The position numbers and the translations under genes are program-made. DNA of 35,140 nt, taken from Opitutaceae bacterium. Lineage in GTDB: Bacteria > Verrucomicrobiota > Verrucomicrobiia > Opitutales > Opitutaceae. Positions 10,917-22,232 of the stretch are shown here, piece by piece (the first letter of the stretch is position 1; every line of letters begins with the position of its first letter). Location of the stretch: NCBI GenBank assembly GCA_024711005.1, contig JANJTQ010000005.1, forward strand, positions 1 to 35,140, written 5' to 3'. Under the pieces are notes generated by a model. That model was not told the origin of the DNA. It worked only from the letters and a program-made list of their open reading frames with translations, and searched no databases.

Positions 10917-12407
10917 TCAGACCGTGACCGCTTCGCGCATGTCGCCGGTGCGCAGGAACTGCTCGTGCATGGCGAAGGCGCGGCTGAGCGTCTGCGGAGT
11001 CTGCCCGTGCTTGGCCATTTCGAAGTAGTGCATGAGCTGATCATGGAACTGCGGATGGGCGCATTTCTGAATGATGAGGCGGGCGCGTTCGTTGGGGGCT
11101 TTTCCGCGGAGATCGGCCACGCCGTTTTCCGTGACGACCACCTGGACGGAGTGCTCGCTGTGATCCATGTGCGAGACCAGCGGCACGATCGTGCTGATCT
11201 TGCCCCCCTTGGCGGATGACGGACAGGTGAAGATCGAAATATGGGCGTTGCGCGTAAAATCACCCGAGCCGCCGATGCCGTTCATAAGGTTCGAGCCCAT
11301 GATGTGCGTCGAGTTGATGTTGCCGAAGATGTCCACCTCGATGGCCGTATTCACGGTAATGATACCCAGGCGACGGACGACCTCCGGGTTGTTGGTGATC
11401 TCCTGCGGGCGCAGCAGAATCCGCGAACGGAAAAACTCCAGGTCTTCGTAGAACTTAAGCAGCACATCCTTCGCGATGGTGAGCGAGGTGCCGGTGGCGA
11501 ACTTCACCTTGCCGGAGCGAACCAGGTCGATGACCGAATCCTGAATCACCTCGGAATACATCTCGAACGCGGGAATGTCGGGATGGGCGCCGAGGCCGCC
11601 GAGGACGGCGTTGGCGATGTTGCCGACGCCGGATTGGATGGGGAGAAATTCCTTCGGAATACGGCCGGCACGGAGCTCCGCGGCGATGAATCCGGCGACG
11701 TTGCGGCCGATGCGGTCGGTCGTTTCGTCGGCGGGCTCGAAGCCCCCGGTCTCGTCGGGCATGTTGTTCTCGACGACACCGGCGATCCTGCTCGGATCGA
11801 TTTTGACGGTCTGGGTGCCGATGCGGTCGGAGGGGCGAAGAATCGGAATCGGGAGCCGGTGCGGGGGATCGAGCGGCTCATAAATATCGTGGAATCCGCG
11901 AAGCTTCGGCGAATGGAAACGGTTGAGCTCGATGATGACCTTTTTCGCGCAATGCAGGAACGTGGGCGAGGCGCCGACGGAGGTGGTGAGCACCACTTCG
12001 CCCTCGGGGGTCACGTCACATGCCTCGACGATAGCCCAGTCGAATCGCCCCAAAAATCCGCTGCGCACCTGTTGCGGCAAATGCGAGAGGTGCATGTCGA
12101 AAAAGCGCGTGCGGCCGGCGTTAATGCTCTCGCGCAGCGACTTGTTGCTTTGATAAGGCGTGCGCCAGGAGATGGCGTCGGCGCGGGCGAGTTCGCCGTC
12201 GAGCGAATCTCCGGTCGAGGCGCCGGAGACGATGGCAACCTTGAAAGGGCGTCCGGCGGCGTGTTCGGCGCGGGCGCGGGCGGCGAGCGCACGAGGCACG
12301 ACCTTGGCGGCGCCGGCCGGCGTGAATCCGCTTACGCCAAGAGTCTGGCCGTCCTTGATAAGAGAGGCCGCTTCGTCGGCCGTCAGGGTTGGAAACGGAA
12401 ATTTCAT
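10917..12407 (-). CDS. Acetyl-CoA hydrolase/transferase family protein, succinyl-CoA:acetate CoA-transferase type
   Basis: This 496-residue protein matches the class I CoA-transferase subfamily that includes succinyl-CoA:acetate and propionate:succinate CoA-transferases. Evidence includes the N-terminal GVSGFTPAGAAKVVPRAL (24-41), SGASTGDSLDGELARADAI, the GVGNIANAVL segment near 260-269, then MYSEVIQD, in which E286 is the likely catalytic glutamate by position (inference), and the C-terminal IEVDIFGNINSTHIMG and NGIGGSGDFTRNA. Such enzymes exchange CoA between short-chain acids in fermentation or a modified citric acid cycle. The exact acid pair cannot be read from sequence. It is divergent from the AsmA-like gene, sharing a 148-base intergenic region. 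No Shine-Dalgarno is visible. Confidence 0.9.
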   Translation of the reverse strand: MKFPFPTLTADEAASLIKDGQTLGVSGFTPAGAAKVVPRALAARARAEHAAGRPFKVAIVSGASTGDSLDGELARADAISWRTPYQSNKSLRESINAGRTRFFDMHLSHLPQQVRSGFLGRFDWAIVEACDVTPEGEVVLTTSVGASPTFLHCAKKVIIELNRFHSPKLRGFHDIYEPLDPPHRLPIPILRPSDRIGTQTVKIDPSRIAGVVENNMPDETGGFEPADETTDRIGRNVAGFIAAELRAGRIPKEFLPIQSGVGNIANAVLGGLGAHPDIPAFEMYSEVIQDSVIDLVRSGKVKFATGTSLTIAKDVLLKFYEDLEFFRSRILLRPQEITNNPEVVRRLGIITVNTAIEVDIFGNINSTHIMGSNLMNGIGGSGDFTRNAHISIFTCPSSAKGGKISTIVPLVSHMDHSEHSVQVVVTENGVADLRGKAPNERARLIIQKCAHPQFHDQLMHYFEMAKHGQTPQTLSRAFAMHEQFLRTGDMREAVTV

Positions 12408-14228: not shown

Positions 14229-15131
14229 ATGTCCGATCATTCCCACGAGGGTAAGCACGAGGAAAAATTTTCCCCGTGGCTCTTTATCGCCACCATCCTT
14301 GTCTCACTTGCCGTCCTCTTTGCGGCACTGGCCTTCATCGTGCCGGGCGTCTGGCAGACCCAGCTCGCCGCGTCCGGATGGTCGCTCGCCGTGTGCTTTG
14401 TCGTCGTCCATGCGATCGCGGGCGTCTTCGAGTTTTTCTTTCATCGCTACATCCTGCACGCACCGCTCGTTCCCTTCCTCAGCTACTTCTACAAGCAACA
14501 CACGCTTCACCACGCGCTCACCCACATCGGCTATCACCGTTCGAAAATCACCAACGCCGAAGTGCCCGGACTGATCGACAACGAACCGGTCGCGGAGCCC
14601 CTGCACATCGCCCGTAACACCTTCCCCATCGTGGAGGAAAAACAACACGAGGCCTCCTACTTCCCGTGGTATTCGATGCTGGTGTTCTCGCTCGTCGTGA
14701 CGCCTCTCCTCGCGCTCGGCCAGTGGCTGTTCCCGTCCGCCCCCGTGTTCTTGGGCGGCTTTCTCGGCGTCGCATTCTCGATGTCCCTCTACGAACTCAT
14801 CCACGCCGTCGAACACTGGCCGCAAGACACCTGGGACCGCCTCATCGAGCATCCGCGCTTCGGTCGCATGTGGCGCAAAGCCTACGCGTTCCACCTGCGT
14901 CATCACGCAGACATCCGTTGCAACGAAGGCATCTCGGGTATCTTCGGTCTTCCGCTCGTTGATTTTGTCCTCGGCACCTACGTCGATCCCGAAACGCTCT
15001 ACACTCACGGCGAACACGTCCACGCCGACGAATTCGTGAGCCCGCAGCCACGCTTTGCGTTTATCCGCTGGCTCGATCGTCGCGCCGATGAAGCCGTGAA
15101 AAATCGCCGCGCGGCTCGTCGCGCCGCCTGA
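14229..15131 (+). CDS. Fatty acid hydroxylase/sterol desaturase superfamily membrane protein
   Basis: This 300-residue integral membrane protein has a hydrophilic N-terminus, membrane segments near 17-38 and 47-70, a third and fourth at about 150-190, and the clustered histidine boxes of a di-iron membrane oxygenase: HRYILH, HTLHH with a nearby H in HIGYH, and HLRHH near the C-terminal third. This set is typical of the FA_hydroxylase superfamily (ERG3, CrtZ-like and related). Substrate candidates are fatty acids, sterol-like lipids or carotenoids; the sequence does not decide. The gene begins 207 bases after the DsbA-like gene. That gap holds a weak GGTTGG/CCAACC hairpin (14032-14058) and a C-rich run. 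No Shine-Dalgarno is visible. Confidence 0.82.
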   Translation: MSDHSHEGKHEEKFSPWLFIATILVSLAVLFAALAFIVPGVWQTQLAASGWSLAVCFVVVHAIAGVFEFFFHRYILHAPLVPFLSYFYKQHTLHHALTHIGYHRSKITNAEVPGLIDNEPVAEPLHIARNTFPIVEEKQHEASYFPWYSMLVFSLVVTPLLALGQWLFPSAPVFLGGFLGVAFSMSLYELIHAVEHWPQDTWDRLIEHPRFGRMWRKAYAFHLRHHADIRCNEGISGIFGLPLVDFVLGTYVDPETLYTHGEHVHADEFVSPQPRFAFIRWLDRRADEAVKNRRAARRAA

Positions 15132-15185
15132 TTCAATCCCAGACTTGACCCGGCGCGATTTTCTCGCCTTGTTCCGCTCGTCTCA

Positions 15186-15296
15186 ATGAATCTCCGCGGC
15201 ACGACGCTCTCTTCCAAAGCCTCCGCCCACGCCTCCGTGGTCGCAGTCGTCGTGTCCGTATCCGTGTCCGTTAGCAACGCGCCGAGAGGGGCCTGA
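15186..15296 (+). CDS. Valine-rich leader peptide of an attenuator (ivbL-like)
   Basis: ATG at 15186 opens a 36-codon ORF ending in TGA at 15294-15296. Residues 18-29 contain eight valine codons (using GTG, GTC, GTA and GTT) alternating in the second half with serine, and the peptide ends SNAPRGA. Enterobacterial IvbL, the ilvBN leader peptide, likewise has a run of Val codons and ends GNAP. An intrinsic terminator starts 16 bases after the stop codon. GAGGGG at 15286-15291, within the last codons, can pair with CCCCTC in the left terminator arm, giving a possible antiterminator. This is the standard plan of ribosome-mediated attenuation responding to charged tRNA-Val. A weak TTGACC (15145-15150) could be a -35 element; a matching -10 is not clear. 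Confidence 0.75.
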   Translation: MNLRGTTLSSKASAHASVVAVVVSVSVSVSNAPRGA

Positions 15297-15311
15297 GCGA
15301 AGCCAATTTTC

Positions 15312-15347
15312 GCCCCCTCCGGTGCCATACCGGAGGGGGCTTTTTTT
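15312..15347 (+). terminator. Intrinsic terminator, probable attenuator
   Basis: GCCCCCTCCGGT pairs with ACCGGAGGGGGC around a short loop (GCCAT region) and is followed by seven Ts. It is one of the strongest hairpins in the window. It lies between the valine-rich leader ORF and the 71-residue ORF plus aminotransferase gene, so it would govern read-through into them. It would also end transcripts from the hydroxylase gene upstream. Confidence 0.88.
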
Positions 15348-15406: not shown

Positions 15407-15622
15407 ATGAATAACACCGCCATCATCCGGACGCCGCGCTTTGCGCAGCCGCTCAACCTCACCACACACCTCAGCCAGGAGATCACCCGTCCCTTTTTCG
15501 AGACGGAGTTCCATCCCGCCACACACGACATGCTCCTGCTCAACACGCATCCCGATCTCCTCCCGGAACCAGAACCGGCGCCGATCCACGAACTCACGTT
15601 CTTCAACATCGATCGCCCGTGA
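15407..15622 (+). CDS. Small hypothetical protein translationally coupled to the aminotransferase
   Basis: The ATG at 15407 gives 71 residues, with PFFETEFHPATHDMLLLN in the middle and a proline- and glutamate-rich stretch (PDLLPEPEPAP) before the end. Its stop codon overlaps the GTG start of the aminotransferase (GTGA, 15619-15622), a layout that suggests translational coupling. It is the first gene after the attenuator. I do not recognise a family. An alternative GTG start at 15374 would add 11 residues. It could be a regulatory or partner subunit of the aminotransferase, or a second leader ORF; nothing in the sequence decides. Confidence 0.6.
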   Translation: MNNTAIIRTPRFAQPLNLTTHLSQEITRPFFETEFHPATHDMLLLNTHPDLLPEPEPAPIHELTFFNIDRP

Positions 15623-16905
15623 GTGCCTTCCCTCACAATCCCGCCGAAAACGAAGTCGCTCCAACATCTCTTCGCCCGGCGGGACAAGCCGGGGGCGTCG
15701 CCCCGTCTTCGGTCTACCGCTTCGCCTCCCGCACCACCGCGCTCAAATCCAGCGCCATTCGCGAAATTCTGAAGGTCACCTCCGCGCCCGACATCATCTC
15801 CTTCGCCGGAGGCCTTCCGGCCCCCGAGCTTTTTCCCGTCGAGGCCGTCGCTCGTTCCGCGCAAGCCGTGCTCTTCTCCGACGGCCCCCCCGCGCTTCAA
15901 TACGGCGTCACCGAAGGCCACCTGCCGCTGCGCGAATGGGTCTGCGCCCACCTCGCCTCCACCGTCGGATTATCCGTATCGCCCGATGACGTCGTTATCA
16001 CCTCGGGCTCCCAACAAGCCCTCGACTTGATCTCCAAAGTCCTTCTGGACCCGGGCGACGTGGTGCTCACCGAGAATCCGGCCTACCTCGGCGCGCTCCA
16101 GGCATTCCAAGCGTACGAAGCCCGCGCCGTCGGACTCCCCTCCGACGAACACGGCCTGCAACCCGCCGCCCTCCTCACGTTTTTGGAAACCTCTCCGGCA
16201 CGGCCCAAGCTGCTGTATTTGATTCCCAACTACCAGAACCCGACCGGCGTCACTCTTTCCGCCGCGCGTCGCGCCGAAGTGGTGCGGATCGCCGCGCGCT
16301 TCGGCATCCCCGTCCTGGAAGACGATCCCTACGGCGCGCTGCGTTTCTCCGGCGAAGCCTTGCCCGCTCTGGCCGCGTTCCCCGGTGCCCGCGACTGTCT
16401 TTACCTCGGCACCTCCAGCAAAATCCTCGCCCCCGGCCTTCGCGTGGCGTGGCTCGTCGTGACCGACCGCGGCCTCCGCGAAAAGATCACCACGGCCAAA
16501 CAAGCCGCCGATCTGCATACGTCCTCGTTCACGCAGCGCATTGTCCTCCACTACGTCAGTCAGGCCGGCGTTCTGGATGCGCACGTCGAAACACTCCGCG
16601 CCGTCTACCGTCGCCGTCGCGACGTGATGCTCGCCGCCCTCGCCCGAGAATTGCCCGCCGGCTGCGCCTGGACACACCCCGGAGGCGGACTGTTTTTATG
16701 GGTCACCCTACCGGCGGCCATCGATACCACCGAGCTCCTCCATGTCGCCGCCCGGGAAAAAATCGCGTTCGTGCCCGGCGCCCCGTTCTGGGTGGGCGAG
16801 CCGGTTCGCAATACGCTGCGCCTCAACTTTAGCAACGCGACCGAAGCCCGCATCGAAGAAGGGATCGCCAGGCTCGGCAAGGTTCTAAAAAACGGAATGC
16901 TTTAA
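15619..16905 (+). CDS. PLP-dependent class I/II aminotransferase (LysN/2-aminoadipate aminotransferase-like)
   Basis: This 428-residue fold-type I aminotransferase has the FAGGLPAPELFP substrate-side segment (62-73), the YGVTEGHLPLRE segment (95-106), the SGSQQALDL phosphate region (129-137), NPTG (207-210, with N207), DDPYG (235-239, with D235 and Y238), and the PLP lysine K268 in GTSSKILAPGLRVAW. The carboxylate-binding arginine is in NTLRLNF near the C-terminus. This subgroup includes enzymes for 2-aminoadipate, leucine and other amino acids. The valine attenuator in front suggests a role in branched-chain amino acid synthesis or balance (inference). The start is GTG overlapping the upstream stop codon; a GTG start without a Shine-Dalgarno fits reinitiation. 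About 30 N-terminal residues precede the conserved core. Confidence 0.9.
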   Translation: MSAFPHNPAENEVAPTSLRPAGQAGGVAPSSVYRFASRTTALKSSAIREILKVTSAPDIISFAGGLPAPELFPVEAVARSAQAVLFSDGPPALQYGVTEGHLPLREWVCAHLASTVGLSVSPDDVVITSGSQQALDLISKVLLDPGDVVLTENPAYLGALQAFQAYEARAVGLPSDEHGLQPAALLTFLETSPARPKLLYLIPNYQNPTGVTLSAARRAEVVRIAARFGIPVLEDDPYGALRFSGEALPALAAFPGARDCLYLGTSSKILAPGLRVAWLVVTDRGLREKITTAKQAADLHTSSFTQRIVLHYVSQAGVLDAHVETLRAVYRRRRDVMLAALARELPAGCAWTHPGGGLFLWVTLPAAIDTTELLHVAAREKIAFVPGAPFWVGEPVRNTLRLNFSNATEARIEEGIARLGKVLKNGML

Positions 16906-18966: not shown

Positions 18967-19367
18967 GTTTCGCCAGGCGAACATCCGTCTTCCCTGTTTT
19001 CGTGAAGATAAGCCGGGAGCACCGAACAGATCGGCGCGATGGAAACGATTGGGAAGAAACGCGAGCGACGGCGCGGGATTACGGAAGCAACATGGGGCAG
19101 AGCGTTGAGGTGATCGGAGCGTCACCCGGCGTTTTGAACACCGGCAAAGCCAGGTGCGATCACGCGGGGCCAACAGGAGGGGGAGTGAACGTGATTTAAT
19201 ACGGAGCTGCGCAAGTTTGGAGACACGTCTCCAGTTACCGTAACCCTCTTCCAGGAAACGCCACCGGCGCACGACGGTTGCACAAACAATCCGGGATAGG
19301 GTATTTCCCTTTGCCGTTCTGGGCCCTTGGATTTCAGAGCGCGCTTCCCAAGCACACAGGACATGAA
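18967..19367. other. Intergenic region between tRNA-Leu and PEP-CTERM gene
   Basis: About 400 bases without a convincing gene; an ORF of 65 codons from 19002 has no recognisable features. It contains a perfect 16-base dyad, TGGAGAC-AC-GTCTCCA (19218-19233), possibly an operator or dispersed repeat. A weak promoter-like pair, TTGCAC (from 19277) and TATTTC, is near the 3' end. Confidence 0.4.
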
Positions 19368-22232
19368 ATGCTCGGCGGAATGAAGAACCCCCTTCTTTCC
19401 CGCTGTTCCTCGGTCGTCTTCGGTCTTGCCGCCTTCTTGATCACAATCCCCCTCGCGTCGGCTCAGGTAACCACCGGTTTCAATCAGACAGCCGCCGGCA
19501 CCTACGACTATAACAACTCAGCCAACTGGGTTGATGGAGACATCAACGGCGTCTGGAGCAATGCGCTCACGTTGACCGGTACGCAGACCGTAACCTTCGG
19601 AGCAGATACGACCTTGAATGCGACGAACGGCATCAGCCTCAATTTCAGTCATGCCGGGGCATTCAGCACGACCCTTCGCGCCGATGGAACAGGCCCCTAC
19701 GTCTTGACCTTGGGCGGCGATGTATTTGTCAACACTGCCAGCACATCCCCGAATCCCATCGTGCTCATCGGTGCGTTTACGGGTAACCAGAACTTAAATC
19801 TCAACCTGGGTGGAGCGACGCGGACTTTCAATGTTACCTCCAGCGGGGCGAGAAATCTATCGGTCCGGGCCAACATCATTGGTACCAACTCGACCGACGG
19901 TATCGTTAAGATCGGGGCCGGAACACTGACGCTCGAAGGTGTCAGCAGCTACACAGGCAACACCTCGATCAACGGCGGAACACTGGTACTGGGAGGTGCG
20001 GGAGCAGTCGCAGGCTCCGACTTCGTGGTGAACAGCGGAGCCTCCCTCAACATCAACAACTCAGGGAACGGTGTCGCGGATCGCACGCGTGCCCAAAGCG
20101 TCACGATCAATTCCGGCTCTCTTTCCGTCGTGAACCACTCGGGCTCGCTCACCAGCTACAACGACACGATCTCCGGCGGGATCGCCGTGAACGGCGGCGC
20201 CACTATCTCGATCACCGCGCCCACCGGCAAACATCAGCAACTCACAGCGAACTCGTTCACTCAAAACGCAGGTGGAACCACGCTCTTCCGCGGGACCAAC
20301 CTCGGCGTAAACACGTTCGAGTCGAAGACTGCGGCCAGCTCGAATATCGTCTTCACCAACGCACCGGTGCTCTCCGGTTCCGGAGACGCCGGCACCCCGA
20401 CGGTCGGCATCATCGCGGGTGCCTACGGCGATACCTCACCAACCGGCGCCGGCAGCGGACTGGTCACCTATGATGCCACGAAGGGCGTGCGCCTCCTGGA
20501 GGCTTCGGAGTACACGGCCACTCTCGCCGACGGCGAAGGCAATGTCAGCCTGGCGGGCGTTTCGGGCGGTGTGTCGGGCGCGCCGGCCACCTTCACGCTC
20601 AACGGCGATGCCACCGTCCAGTCGCTCTCGCTCAACACTTCGGGTGCCTCCGGCCACGCCGGCATCATTGTCGAAGGAACCGGCTCGTTGACCATCGGCA
20701 GCGGAACGATCTTCGCCAATCAAAAGGCGACCGGCACCGTGACGAGCGCCGACGCCATCCTGATTTCCAAGAACCTCGATTTCGGAGCCGTCGAAGGCAA
20801 AATCTTGGTCGGCACCACCACGGGACTCAGCAACAGCATCACACCGGCCCCCTTGAACATCTCGGGAGCCATCTCCGGGTCCGCCGGCATCACCAAGGGC
20901 GGCACGGGGAACCTCACGCTCTCGGGCACCGCGTCCAACACTTACACCGGAGTGACGACGATCGACGCCGGCAATGTGCTCGCGAGCAAAACCGGCGGTG
21001 CCCAGGCGATCACCGGCGATCTCGTGATCAACGGCGGCATCCTTTTCCAGAACAGCAATCAGATCGCCGACGCGGCAAACGTCACCGTCGACGGGGGCAG
21101 CTGGCGGCTGGCGCCATCCGGAAGCGGCGGCAGCGCAGCGTCCGAAGTGGTGGCATCGGTTACCATCAACAGCGGCAGCGTTGCCCAATCATCCAGCGGC
21201 GTAAACGGCGGCTCCCTGACCGTCACCAACGCCTTCACGCTTAACGGCGGGACATTCACGCAAATCAACGGCTACGATTCGGACCTCGGGTCGCTGACGG
21301 TCAATGGCGGCACCATCGATCTTCGCGCCGCCCAAAACACGAACGGCACGGTGATGACCGTGAACGGCGATCTCACGATCACCAACACCGCTTCTTCCAT
21401 CGCGCAAAGCGGGCTCGACTACACTCCGATTTCGCTCAGGGCGGGGACCACCTCCGCCGGCGCCCAGTTGATCCTTAAGGGCAACGTGGTTTTCAACGGC
21501 AACTCCACCAACGGCAACTCCACGGTGATCGACGCGCAAGCCGGCACCAATCTCGGCGTGGTTCAATTGGATGGCGCACGGACCTTCACCATCGGCGATG
21601 GTGCAGCCAGTCTGGATCTGAAAATCACGGCCGCTCTCACCAACAACGGGATCACCGAAGGCGGTATCGTCAAAACAGGTCTTGGCACCTTGGCATTGAC
21701 CGGCGTCAACACCTACACCGGCGCAACCGTGATCGATCAAGGCAGGATCGTTCTCGCCGATTCGGGTGCGATCAACGCCGGCTCCGCGCTGACCGTGGGA
21801 GCCGGAGCGATCCTGGATGCGTCGTCCCAAGGCGCCTACACGTTCAGCACCGCAACCACCACAACCCTCGGCGTCGGCGCGACCGGCGCGGGTCTCATCA
21901 AGGCCGCGGCCGCCACGTTCGAAAACGCATCGCTCACCTTCGACTTCGGCGCCGCGGAAACTCTCCTGGCTGCGTATCAGGTTTTGGATATCTCCGGACT
22001 CGGAACCGGCGACTTCGGCAGCGTCACCGCAACCGGCGCCAACATCAGCGGGACATTCAACAACGACGGTTCCGGCAACTGGACGTTGACCGTCGCCGGC
22101 TACGACTTGGTGTTCAGCCAATCCCTGGGCACGTTGACCACCGGCGCTATTCCCGAGCCTTCGACCGTCGGAGCGATCGTCGGCGCGTTGGCCTTGGTCG
22201 CCGCCGCCGGTCGTCGCAAGCGCAACCGGTAA
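19368..22232 (+). CDS. PEP-CTERM surface protein with autotransporter-associated beta-strand repeats
   Basis: The ATG at 19368 gives 954 residues with a signal peptide (SSVVFGLAAFLITIPLASAQ). The mature protein is a long beta-helix-like array rich in Gly, Thr, Asn and Ser. Copies of the autotransporter-associated beta-strand repeat are visible, such as GAGTLTLEGVSSYTGNTSIN, GGTGNLTLSGTASNTYTGV and GLGTLALTGVNTYTGATVID. It ends with the PEP-CTERM tripartite signal: PEPS, a membrane segment (VGAIVGALALVAAAG) and RRKRNR. Such proteins are sorted by an exosortase and exposed at the surface, often with exopolysaccharide; no exosortase gene is here. An AGG seven bases before ATG 19368 favours that start over ATG 19380. 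It nearly abuts the convergent TrmH-family gene (4-base gap). Confidence 0.92.
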   Translation: MLGGMKNPLLSRCSSVVFGLAAFLITIPLASAQVTTGFNQTAAGTYDYNNSANWVDGDINGVWSNALTLTGTQTVTFGADTTLNATNGISLNFSHAGAFSTTLRADGTGPYVLTLGGDVFVNTASTSPNPIVLIGAFTGNQNLNLNLGGATRTFNVTSSGARNLSVRANIIGTNSTDGIVKIGAGTLTLEGVSSYTGNTSINGGTLVLGGAGAVAGSDFVVNSGASLNINNSGNGVADRTRAQSVTINSGSLSVVNHSGSLTSYNDTISGGIAVNGGATISITAPTGKHQQLTANSFTQNAGGTTLFRGTNLGVNTFESKTAASSNIVFTNAPVLSGSGDAGTPTVGIIAGAYGDTSPTGAGSGLVTYDATKGVRLLEASEYTATLADGEGNVSLAGVSGGVSGAPATFTLNGDATVQSLSLNTSGASGHAGIIVEGTGSLTIGSGTIFANQKATGTVTSADAILISKNLDFGAVEGKILVGTTTGLSNSITPAPLNISGAISGSAGITKGGTGNLTLSGTASNTYTGVTTIDAGNVLASKTGGAQAITGDLVINGGILFQNSNQIADAANVTVDGGSWRLAPSGSGGSAASEVVASVTINSGSVAQSSSGVNGGSLTVTNAFTLNGGTFTQINGYDSDLGSLTVNGGTIDLRAAQNTNGTVMTVNGDLTITNTASSIAQSGLDYTPISLRAGTTSAGAQLILKGNVVFNGNSTNGNSTVIDAQAGTNLGVVQLDGARTFTIGDGAASLDLKITAALTNNGITEGGIVKTGLGTLALTGVNTYTGATVIDQGRIVLADSGAINAGSALTVGAGAILDASSQGAYTFSTATTTTLGVGATGAGLIKAAAATFENASLTFDFGAAETLLAAYQVLDISGLGTGDFGSVTATGANISGTFNNDGSGNWTLTVAGYDLVFSQSLGTLTTGAIPEPSTVGAIVGALALVAAAGRRKRNR

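Follow-up and report, generated by a model that had tools for sequence, protein, structure and literature searches.

The 35,140-nucleotide stretch of Opitutaceae DNA analyzed here (the window) holds a short valine-rich reading frame and a terminator that, by comparison with relatives, read as a ribosome-mediated valine attenuator of the ivbL type. The explanation that we favor, and hold to be probable as a whole, is that the acetolactate synthase I operon (ilvBN) once governed by this leader has shrunk to a mini-gene, that a LysN-like aminotransferase has been added behind it, and that this enzyme is used in branched-chain amino acid metabolism. The features concerned are collected in Table 1.

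Table 1. Elements of the leader region and the genes behind it (window coordinates)
Feature	Position	Strand	Remarks
TTGAC, −35-like promoter element	15145-15149	+	Invariant in 11 aligned leaders, window included
Leader peptide ORF	15186-15296	+	Val codons; orthologous leaders in 16 aminotransferase loci, window included; covariance model match
Antiterminator 5′ strand GAGGGG (region 2)	15286-15291	+	Within last leader codons; complementary to CCCCTC 15314-15319
GCGAA, inner antiterminator strand	15297-15301	+	Pairs with TTCGC 15309-15313
Intrinsic terminator, 13-bp stem and T7	15312-15347	+	Arms 15312-15324 / 15328-15340, T7 15341-15347; CCCCTC of the 5′ arm (15314-15319) doubles as antiterminator region 3
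Mini-ORF, 71 codons, core HDMLLLNTHPDLLPE	15407-15622	+	First gene behind terminator; proposed relic of ilvB N-terminus and ilvN C-terminus
LysN/Aro8-like class I aminotransferase	15619-16905	+	GTG start overlaps mini-ORF stop (GTGA)

Anatomy of the leader

The leader ORF encodes a peptide of 36 codons, MNLRGTTLSSKASAHASVVAVVVSVSVSVSNAPRGA, with eight valines in residues 18-29 (positions 18, 19, 21, 22, 23, 25, 27, and 29) and the C-terminal sequence SNAPRGA, and is followed by a strong terminator with a run of seven T. The 36-codon ORF, its eight Val codons, its end, and the terminator had been given, correctly to the base, by an earlier sequence-only reading of the region, and the complementarity that it noted between GAGGGG in the ORF and CCCCTC in the terminator arm is likewise confirmed. 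Among ORFs of 15-60 residues, the leader is the sole one in the 35-kb window with at least seven Val per 12 residues, and 60 dinucleotide shuffles of the window produced none. The whole 162-nt leader region folds moderately better than its shuffles (z = −2.09; 6 of 200 shuffles equally good), and the terminator has a predicted fold energy of −28.8 kcal/mol. No Rfam family was matched at gathering score, the best matches being chance ones and several of them falling on the terminator.

Across 41 leaders, 98.9% of the cells of the terminator stem are paired and 24 cells carry two-sided changes, a number that none of 500 shuffles reached. Of the six pairs that join the antiterminator core to the terminator 5′ arm, five are present in 38-41 of these 41 diverse leaders and the sixth in 15; pairing in register reaches 86.6%, against 54-76% when the strands are slid. 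As no two-sided change was found in this core among the 41 leaders, it is without covariation support. The antiterminator and the terminator are sterically exclusive. The linker between the stop codon and the terminator holds a hairpin of variable sequence: 72 distinct family linkers, relatives among them not being independent, fold better than their own shuffles (median p = 0.18, with p ≤ 0.1 in 26 of the 72; KS p = 5e-16), but the linker of the window does not stand out from its shuffles (p = 0.45). A further hairpin, seen by eye in several clades between the terminator and the start of the mini-ORF or ilvB, was rejected (84 loci, mean z = −0.32, 22 with z < −1).

The distance from TTGAC to the leader start codon is 41 nt in the window and 38-45 nt in the aligned relatives. 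Because no good −10 box was seen, the promoter is a putative one. No recognizable Shine-Dalgarno sequence precedes the leader ORF of the window; together with a start 41 nt past the −35-like element, this suggests that the leader may be translated from a nearly leaderless transcript; a transcript start near 15180 would mean almost no 5′ untranslated region.

Conservation of the leader

Of 12 other genomes of the genus, 6 have an ortholog of the aminotransferase with at least 72% identity; further Opitutaceae have one too. Eleven distinct loci, the window included, were aligned, and each has leader, terminator, TTGAC, and mini-ORF; the aligned leaders end in SVVAVVVVSVTxAPRGA and alike, and one of them starts with TTG. 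With five further loci from a family search (L123, L128, L150, L151, L198), the aminotransferase loci number 16, in 16 species. Leader, terminator, and mini-ORF precede all 16 members of the aminotransferase clade (see below) for which upstream DNA was at hand, and neither the ORF nor its Val codons were lost in any of the 16 orthologous loci read.

A covariance model trained on the 11 aligned loci (R1) has matches at E 0.01, among them weak and reverse-strand ones, in 102 of the 150 family genomes; the covariance model match of the window's leader, which was among the training sequences, has E 2.3e-27. From such matches 110 loci were taken (30 + 80; L229 had no model match) and 17 weak or unrelated ones dropped by hand, leaving 92 to be classed; with L172 (ilvB) counted apart, 93 leader loci were read among the matches taken, in 89 of the 150 family genomes. 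The 92 divide into 58 followed by the mini-ORF, 27 by ilvB, two by a transporter-like gene (L192, L210) and one by ilvN only (L211), with three cut off downstream (L125, L159, L167) and one whose mini-ORF, with ADFL, was missed by the motif (L226). The two leaders before a major-facilitator-like transporter gene rather than ilvB or a mini-ORF (L210:761-1999 in G003; L192 in G017) are of the same kind and lower scoring; NCBIfam matches of the L210 gene are far under cut-off, and the L192 gene was judged by eye.

A search of the phylum matched 27 of 337 genomes at E 0.001, 16 of these within the family. Four of the 11 outside it were read by eye, the remaining matches being in G055, G339, G427, G182, G202, G441, and G458: G292 has the leader and ilvB; G316, from another family of the same order, has the leader and a mini-ORF; and the matches in G257 and G400 looked like chance. 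The Val-rich frame ending in APRG or alike is kept across genera, and the end recurs as NAP in Escherichia coli. Judged by this conservation, the leader is not a chance occurrence.

The leader and acetolactate synthase I

Acetolactate synthase I (at least 69% identical to that of L166) was found in 31 of the 150 genomes, and the leader lies directly before ilvB in 28 of these; in the other three (G087, G115, G117) only part of ilvB is on the matched contig, probably cut by the contig ends. ilvN follows ilvB in 19 of the 22 leader loci with the ilvB end present. Because relatives have the same leader directly before acetolactate synthase I, the leader of the window is taken to be an ivbL-type valine attenuator and, in all probability, the old regulator of the ilvBN operon. 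In the window itself ilvBN is absent behind the leader, the mini-ORF and the aminotransferase standing there instead, and of the 58 genomes with a mini-ORF only three (G061, G066, G154) also carry acetolactate synthase I. One genome (G016; L211 / L244) has the Val leader followed by a complete ilvN without ilvB, that is, a lone regulatory subunit behind the attenuator, and is a plausible intermediate.

Some relative of acetolactate synthase I is found at E 1e-60 or better in 144 of the 150 genomes, among the matches listed mostly the housekeeping enzyme (42-48%). At least 11 further family genomes have an ilvB 54-56% identical to that of L166; weak leader matches in two genomes of this kind (G120 and G109; L217 and L225) were left out as unlike the leader. 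The source genome's own ilvB was matched in pieces on two contigs, and no Val leader was found in the upstream DNA read.

A wider model (R2), trained on 41 leaders from Opitutaceae only, finds E. coli ivbL, which was not in the training set, with 38.4 bits (E 2.5e-8 in 17 kb). The E. coli leader is similarly rich in Val (VVVVRVVVVVGNAP) and ends in NAP, has AGGG at the family's region-2 position, and is followed by a GC-rich terminator and then by ilvB and ilvN, whose products are 55% (IlvB) and 49-55% (IlvN) identical to the Opitutaceae proteins. The window differs in that ilvB and ilvN are gone and the mini-ORF and aminotransferase follow, in that its peptide runs on to PRGA, and in that its leader start seemingly lies near the transcript 5′ end, lacking a Shine-Dalgarno sequence. 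The IvbL-type attenuation that had been proposed from the sequence alone is well supported by comparison: Val codons, terminator, and antiterminator are all kept, relatives have the leader in front of ilvB, and the model detects E. coli ivbL. It would extend the range of this classic attenuator from E. coli to Verrucomicrobiota; a search of the open-access literature by title gave no report on attenuation or leader peptides in Verrucomicrobia. In Corynebacterium, a conserved uORF before ilvB (the ilvB-II motif) is reported to regulate the ilvBNC operon (PMC10272879); it resembles the present case in being a conserved uORF before ilvB and belongs to a different phylum, the likeness being one of description.

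The aminotransferase

The sequence-only reading had the leader control an aminotransferase instead of acetolactate synthase. An aminotransferase is indeed encoded behind the leader, but it is not the first gene: the conserved mini-ORF, probably derived from ilvBN, precedes it, and in 47 of the 58 genomes with a mini-ORF no enzyme of this kind could be found downstream of it. The protein matches PH0207 (2.5e-101), the multiple-substrate aminotransferase 1wst (2.2e-95), and LysN 2egy (1e-89) in the PDB, and Pfam PF00155 (8.5e-35); no NCBIfam model was above cut-off among the matches listed (25 of 63). Its similarity to PH0207 and to LysN, the 2-aminoadipate aminotransferase of Thermus thermophilus, extends over the whole length (39-425 in the alignment with LysN); unlike them, it lies behind a valine attenuator and belongs to an Opitutaceae clade of its own beside Eremiobacterota sequences. 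Ser45 and Arg48 align with Ser20 and Arg23 of LysN, a pair that we take to set the broad substrate range of that enzyme.

A midpoint-rooted tree was built of 43 aminotransferases of the 112 matched loci, and has some long branches. In it, the 16 leader-bearing enzymes and L043 (upstream DNA not at hand) fall into a single group (support 86/89), which makes one joining of the aminotransferase to the leader locus probable. Seven sequences, mostly from Eremiobacterota, join this group (99/99), and a scan of their upstream DNA picked up no leader of this kind; further Opitutaceae aminotransferases that lack a leader (L014-L018, 50-55% identity) branch elsewhere. In Eremiobacterota relatives (L045:4206-5825, L047:4194-5774) the aminotransferase overlaps an ORF of ~530 residues (520-540), for which no NCBIfam or Pfam match was found at the thresholds used, and an epimerase-like gene follows. 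The Eremiobacterota loci scanned contain no branched-chain neighbors, and no pathway emerges from the neighborhood.

The absence of such neighbors would suit an enzyme acting on 2-aminoadipate, for lysine, or on aromatic amino acids, with valine as a general starvation signal only. So would its nearest solved relatives, which are 2-aminoadipate, kynurenine, and multiple-substrate aminotransferases, and the presence in the same genome of an ilvE above model cut-off, because of which an additional aminotransferase is not strictly needed. Against this stands the leader, whose other direct target in the family is ilvB, which argues that its ancestral signal was branched-chain supply; moreover, one near solved relative is called a multiple-substrate aminotransferase, by its PDB entry name alone. 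We therefore regard a lysine or aromatic role as possible but doubtful. A branched-chain role, on branched-chain keto acids, is the likely best guess given the ilvBN history of the leader, and it provides a substrate guess for an uncharacterized group of aminotransferases.

The mini-ORF

Across loci the mini-ORF is 60-111 residues long and short and proline-rich in appearance; it stands behind the leader in 58 of the 150 family genomes, which represent 22 of the 49 genera searched. In one of these genomes (L136:1754-3109, G154) the gene behind the mini-ORF resembles malate synthase A (TIGR01344 1.8e-124, under cut-off; gene cut by the locus end). The 58 were selected with a loose motif that also occurs in 247 of 5800 shuffles; a strict motif is present in 48 of these preselected 58, against 2 of 5800 shuffles. 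In loci chosen by position only, the motif is found in 53 of 63, one of which (L193) is really ilvB.

The mini-ORF core, HDFLVLNxRPDLTPE, matches the C-terminus of IlvN, where KLHDVLSVRQRPDLPPDYF and alike correspond to the core of some mini-ORFs, for example HDLLVLTQRPDLTPEFF. Against a profile of 17 IlvN C-termini the best mini-ORF scores 22.7 bits (E 1.5e-7); scores above 10 bits are reached by 5 of the 58 versus 0 of 5800 shuffled sequences, and scores above 4 bits by 15 versus 14 of 5800. The window's own copy scores −0.7 bits, and its link to IlvN therefore runs through its relatives. With hhalign, all mini-ORFs together match the IlvN C-terminus at E 1e-4 (probability 57.5%), and the 17 of the window's group (the 16 aminotransferase loci and G009) at E 0.00029 for one comparison (probability 40.7%). 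Searched the other way round, the signal is weak, with 2 of 18 IlvN scoring above 6 bits, versus 5 of 3600 shuffled sequences, the best of which (14.1) lies above all real ones; the nine IlvN with a positive score match at the C-terminal end. The mini-ORFs lack almost the whole ACT domain, and since only the last 15-20 residues of IlvN can be aligned, they are at most derived from IlvN and are not an IlvN.

At the N-terminus, there are 11 matches to IlvB above 2 bits in the 58 mini-ORFs versus 37 in 5800 shuffles, 9 of the 11 being in register versus 13 of the 37, and the best real match (10.8 bits) exceeds the best shuffle (7.3). hhalign of all mini-ORFs against IlvB is not significant (E 0.52), and the likeness is limited to a subset of species; in L178 IlvB-like and IlvN-like parts can both be read by eye in a single ORF. 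On these comparisons we are rather confident that the core descends from the IlvN C-terminus, and descent of the start from the IlvB N-terminus seems fairly likely. The mini-ORF as a whole looks like an ilvBN with the middle deleted that was retained and re-used.

The mini-ORF is constrained as a protein, as pN/pS is 0.32-0.70 over nine groups of close relatives (0.45 in the window's group) and the core codons vary at third positions. A mere decaying pseudogene, with the leader kept solely for the gene behind it, here the aminotransferase, would be consistent with the ratios of 0.68-0.70 in two of the groups, with N-terminal halves that differ strongly among genera and a motif tail largely lost in some copies, and with the lack of any Pfam or NCBIfam match for the window's mini-ORF. 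Such decay appears improbable in view of ratios below 0.55 in the other seven groups, the excess of the strict motif over shuffles in the preselected set, and the many loci in which no aminotransferase was found. Moreover, one genome (G009) keeps leader and mini-ORF without the aminotransferase, its next gene being by eye homologous to the ORF behind the window's aminotransferase, so that the mini-ORF is independent of the aminotransferase.

Rather than a pseudogene, the mini-ORF might, as a tentative suggestion, be a functional microprotein that arose from an internal deletion of ilvBN and is freed by the old attenuator at low valine, the last strand and tail of IlvN serving to bind and adjust the housekeeping acetolactate synthase that the cell still has, or the regulatory subunit of that enzyme. 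If true, an enzyme operon would have become a regulator gene still governed by the original switch and retained in at least 22 genera, with the aminotransferase hooked on later by the stop-start overlap, through which the two genes may be translationally coupled. The mini-ORF is in any case a concrete candidate for a microprotein born by deletion inside an operon; no open-access publication on truncated ilvN products was found by title.

The proposed switch and its signal

In the attenuation mechanism that we infer for this locus, a ribosome supplied with enough charged tRNA-Val would read the leader to its stop codon and cover GAGGGG, and the terminator would form. When tRNA-Val is short, the ribosome would stall in the Val codons and GAGGGG would pair with CCCCTC, capped by the variable inner hairpin; this pairing would block the terminator, and transcription would continue into the mini-ORF and the aminotransferase. 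ilvBN would have been lost in the lineage save for the short constrained mini-gene, the LysN-like aminotransferase being added behind it, probably once, where it most likely takes part in forming valine and the other branched-chain amino acids from their keto acids with glutamate. The placing of the switch before mini-gene and aminotransferase points to a valine-related job for both, and suggests a switch that has survived the operon it belonged to, the leader remaining in place while the enzyme genes were reduced to a constrained mini-gene and a new gene was brought in.

At least five Val are found in the last 20 codons of 56 of the 58 mini-ORF-type leaders and of 25 of the 26 ilvB-type leaders taken for the comparison. 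The mini-ORF-type leaders also have 4.1 Ser per 20 codons, against 1.3 in the ilvB-type, and the window has VSVSVSVS, with similar runs in L152, L154, L164, and L176; from this alternation it had been suggested that the leader could sense serine as well as valine. The suggestion finds no support in the relatives, since the repeat occurs in none of the 10 aligned orthologs and a repeat-like run in only 5 of 92 leaders, the window included. In addition, E. coli ivbL has been shown to react to valine and to leucine, and none of six further amino acids, which included serine, had an effect (PMC11187965); joint sensing of valine and serine is accordingly quite improbable. That the ORF is spurious, the terminator alone being real and ending the upstream gene (14229-15131), would agree with the position of that gene on the same strand and with the missing Shine-Dalgarno sequence, and is nonetheless hardly credible given the Val-rich frame and its end kept from other genera to E. 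coli, the conserved −35 element just upstream, and the occurrence of the leader before different genes.

The upstream gene, just before the leader, matches NCBIfam TrhA_N_extend (TrhA companion domain) with 391 bits against a cut-off of 200. Elsewhere in the window, a CoA transferase gene on the reverse strand (10917-12407) is over cut-off for the butyryl-CoA:acetate (NF053666), succinate (TIGR03458), and succinyl-CoA:acetate (NF053853) models, and 19278-22232 encodes a protein of 984 residues whose beta-strand repeats are of the autotransporter type (TIGR02601) and whose tail looks PEP-CTERM-like by eye.
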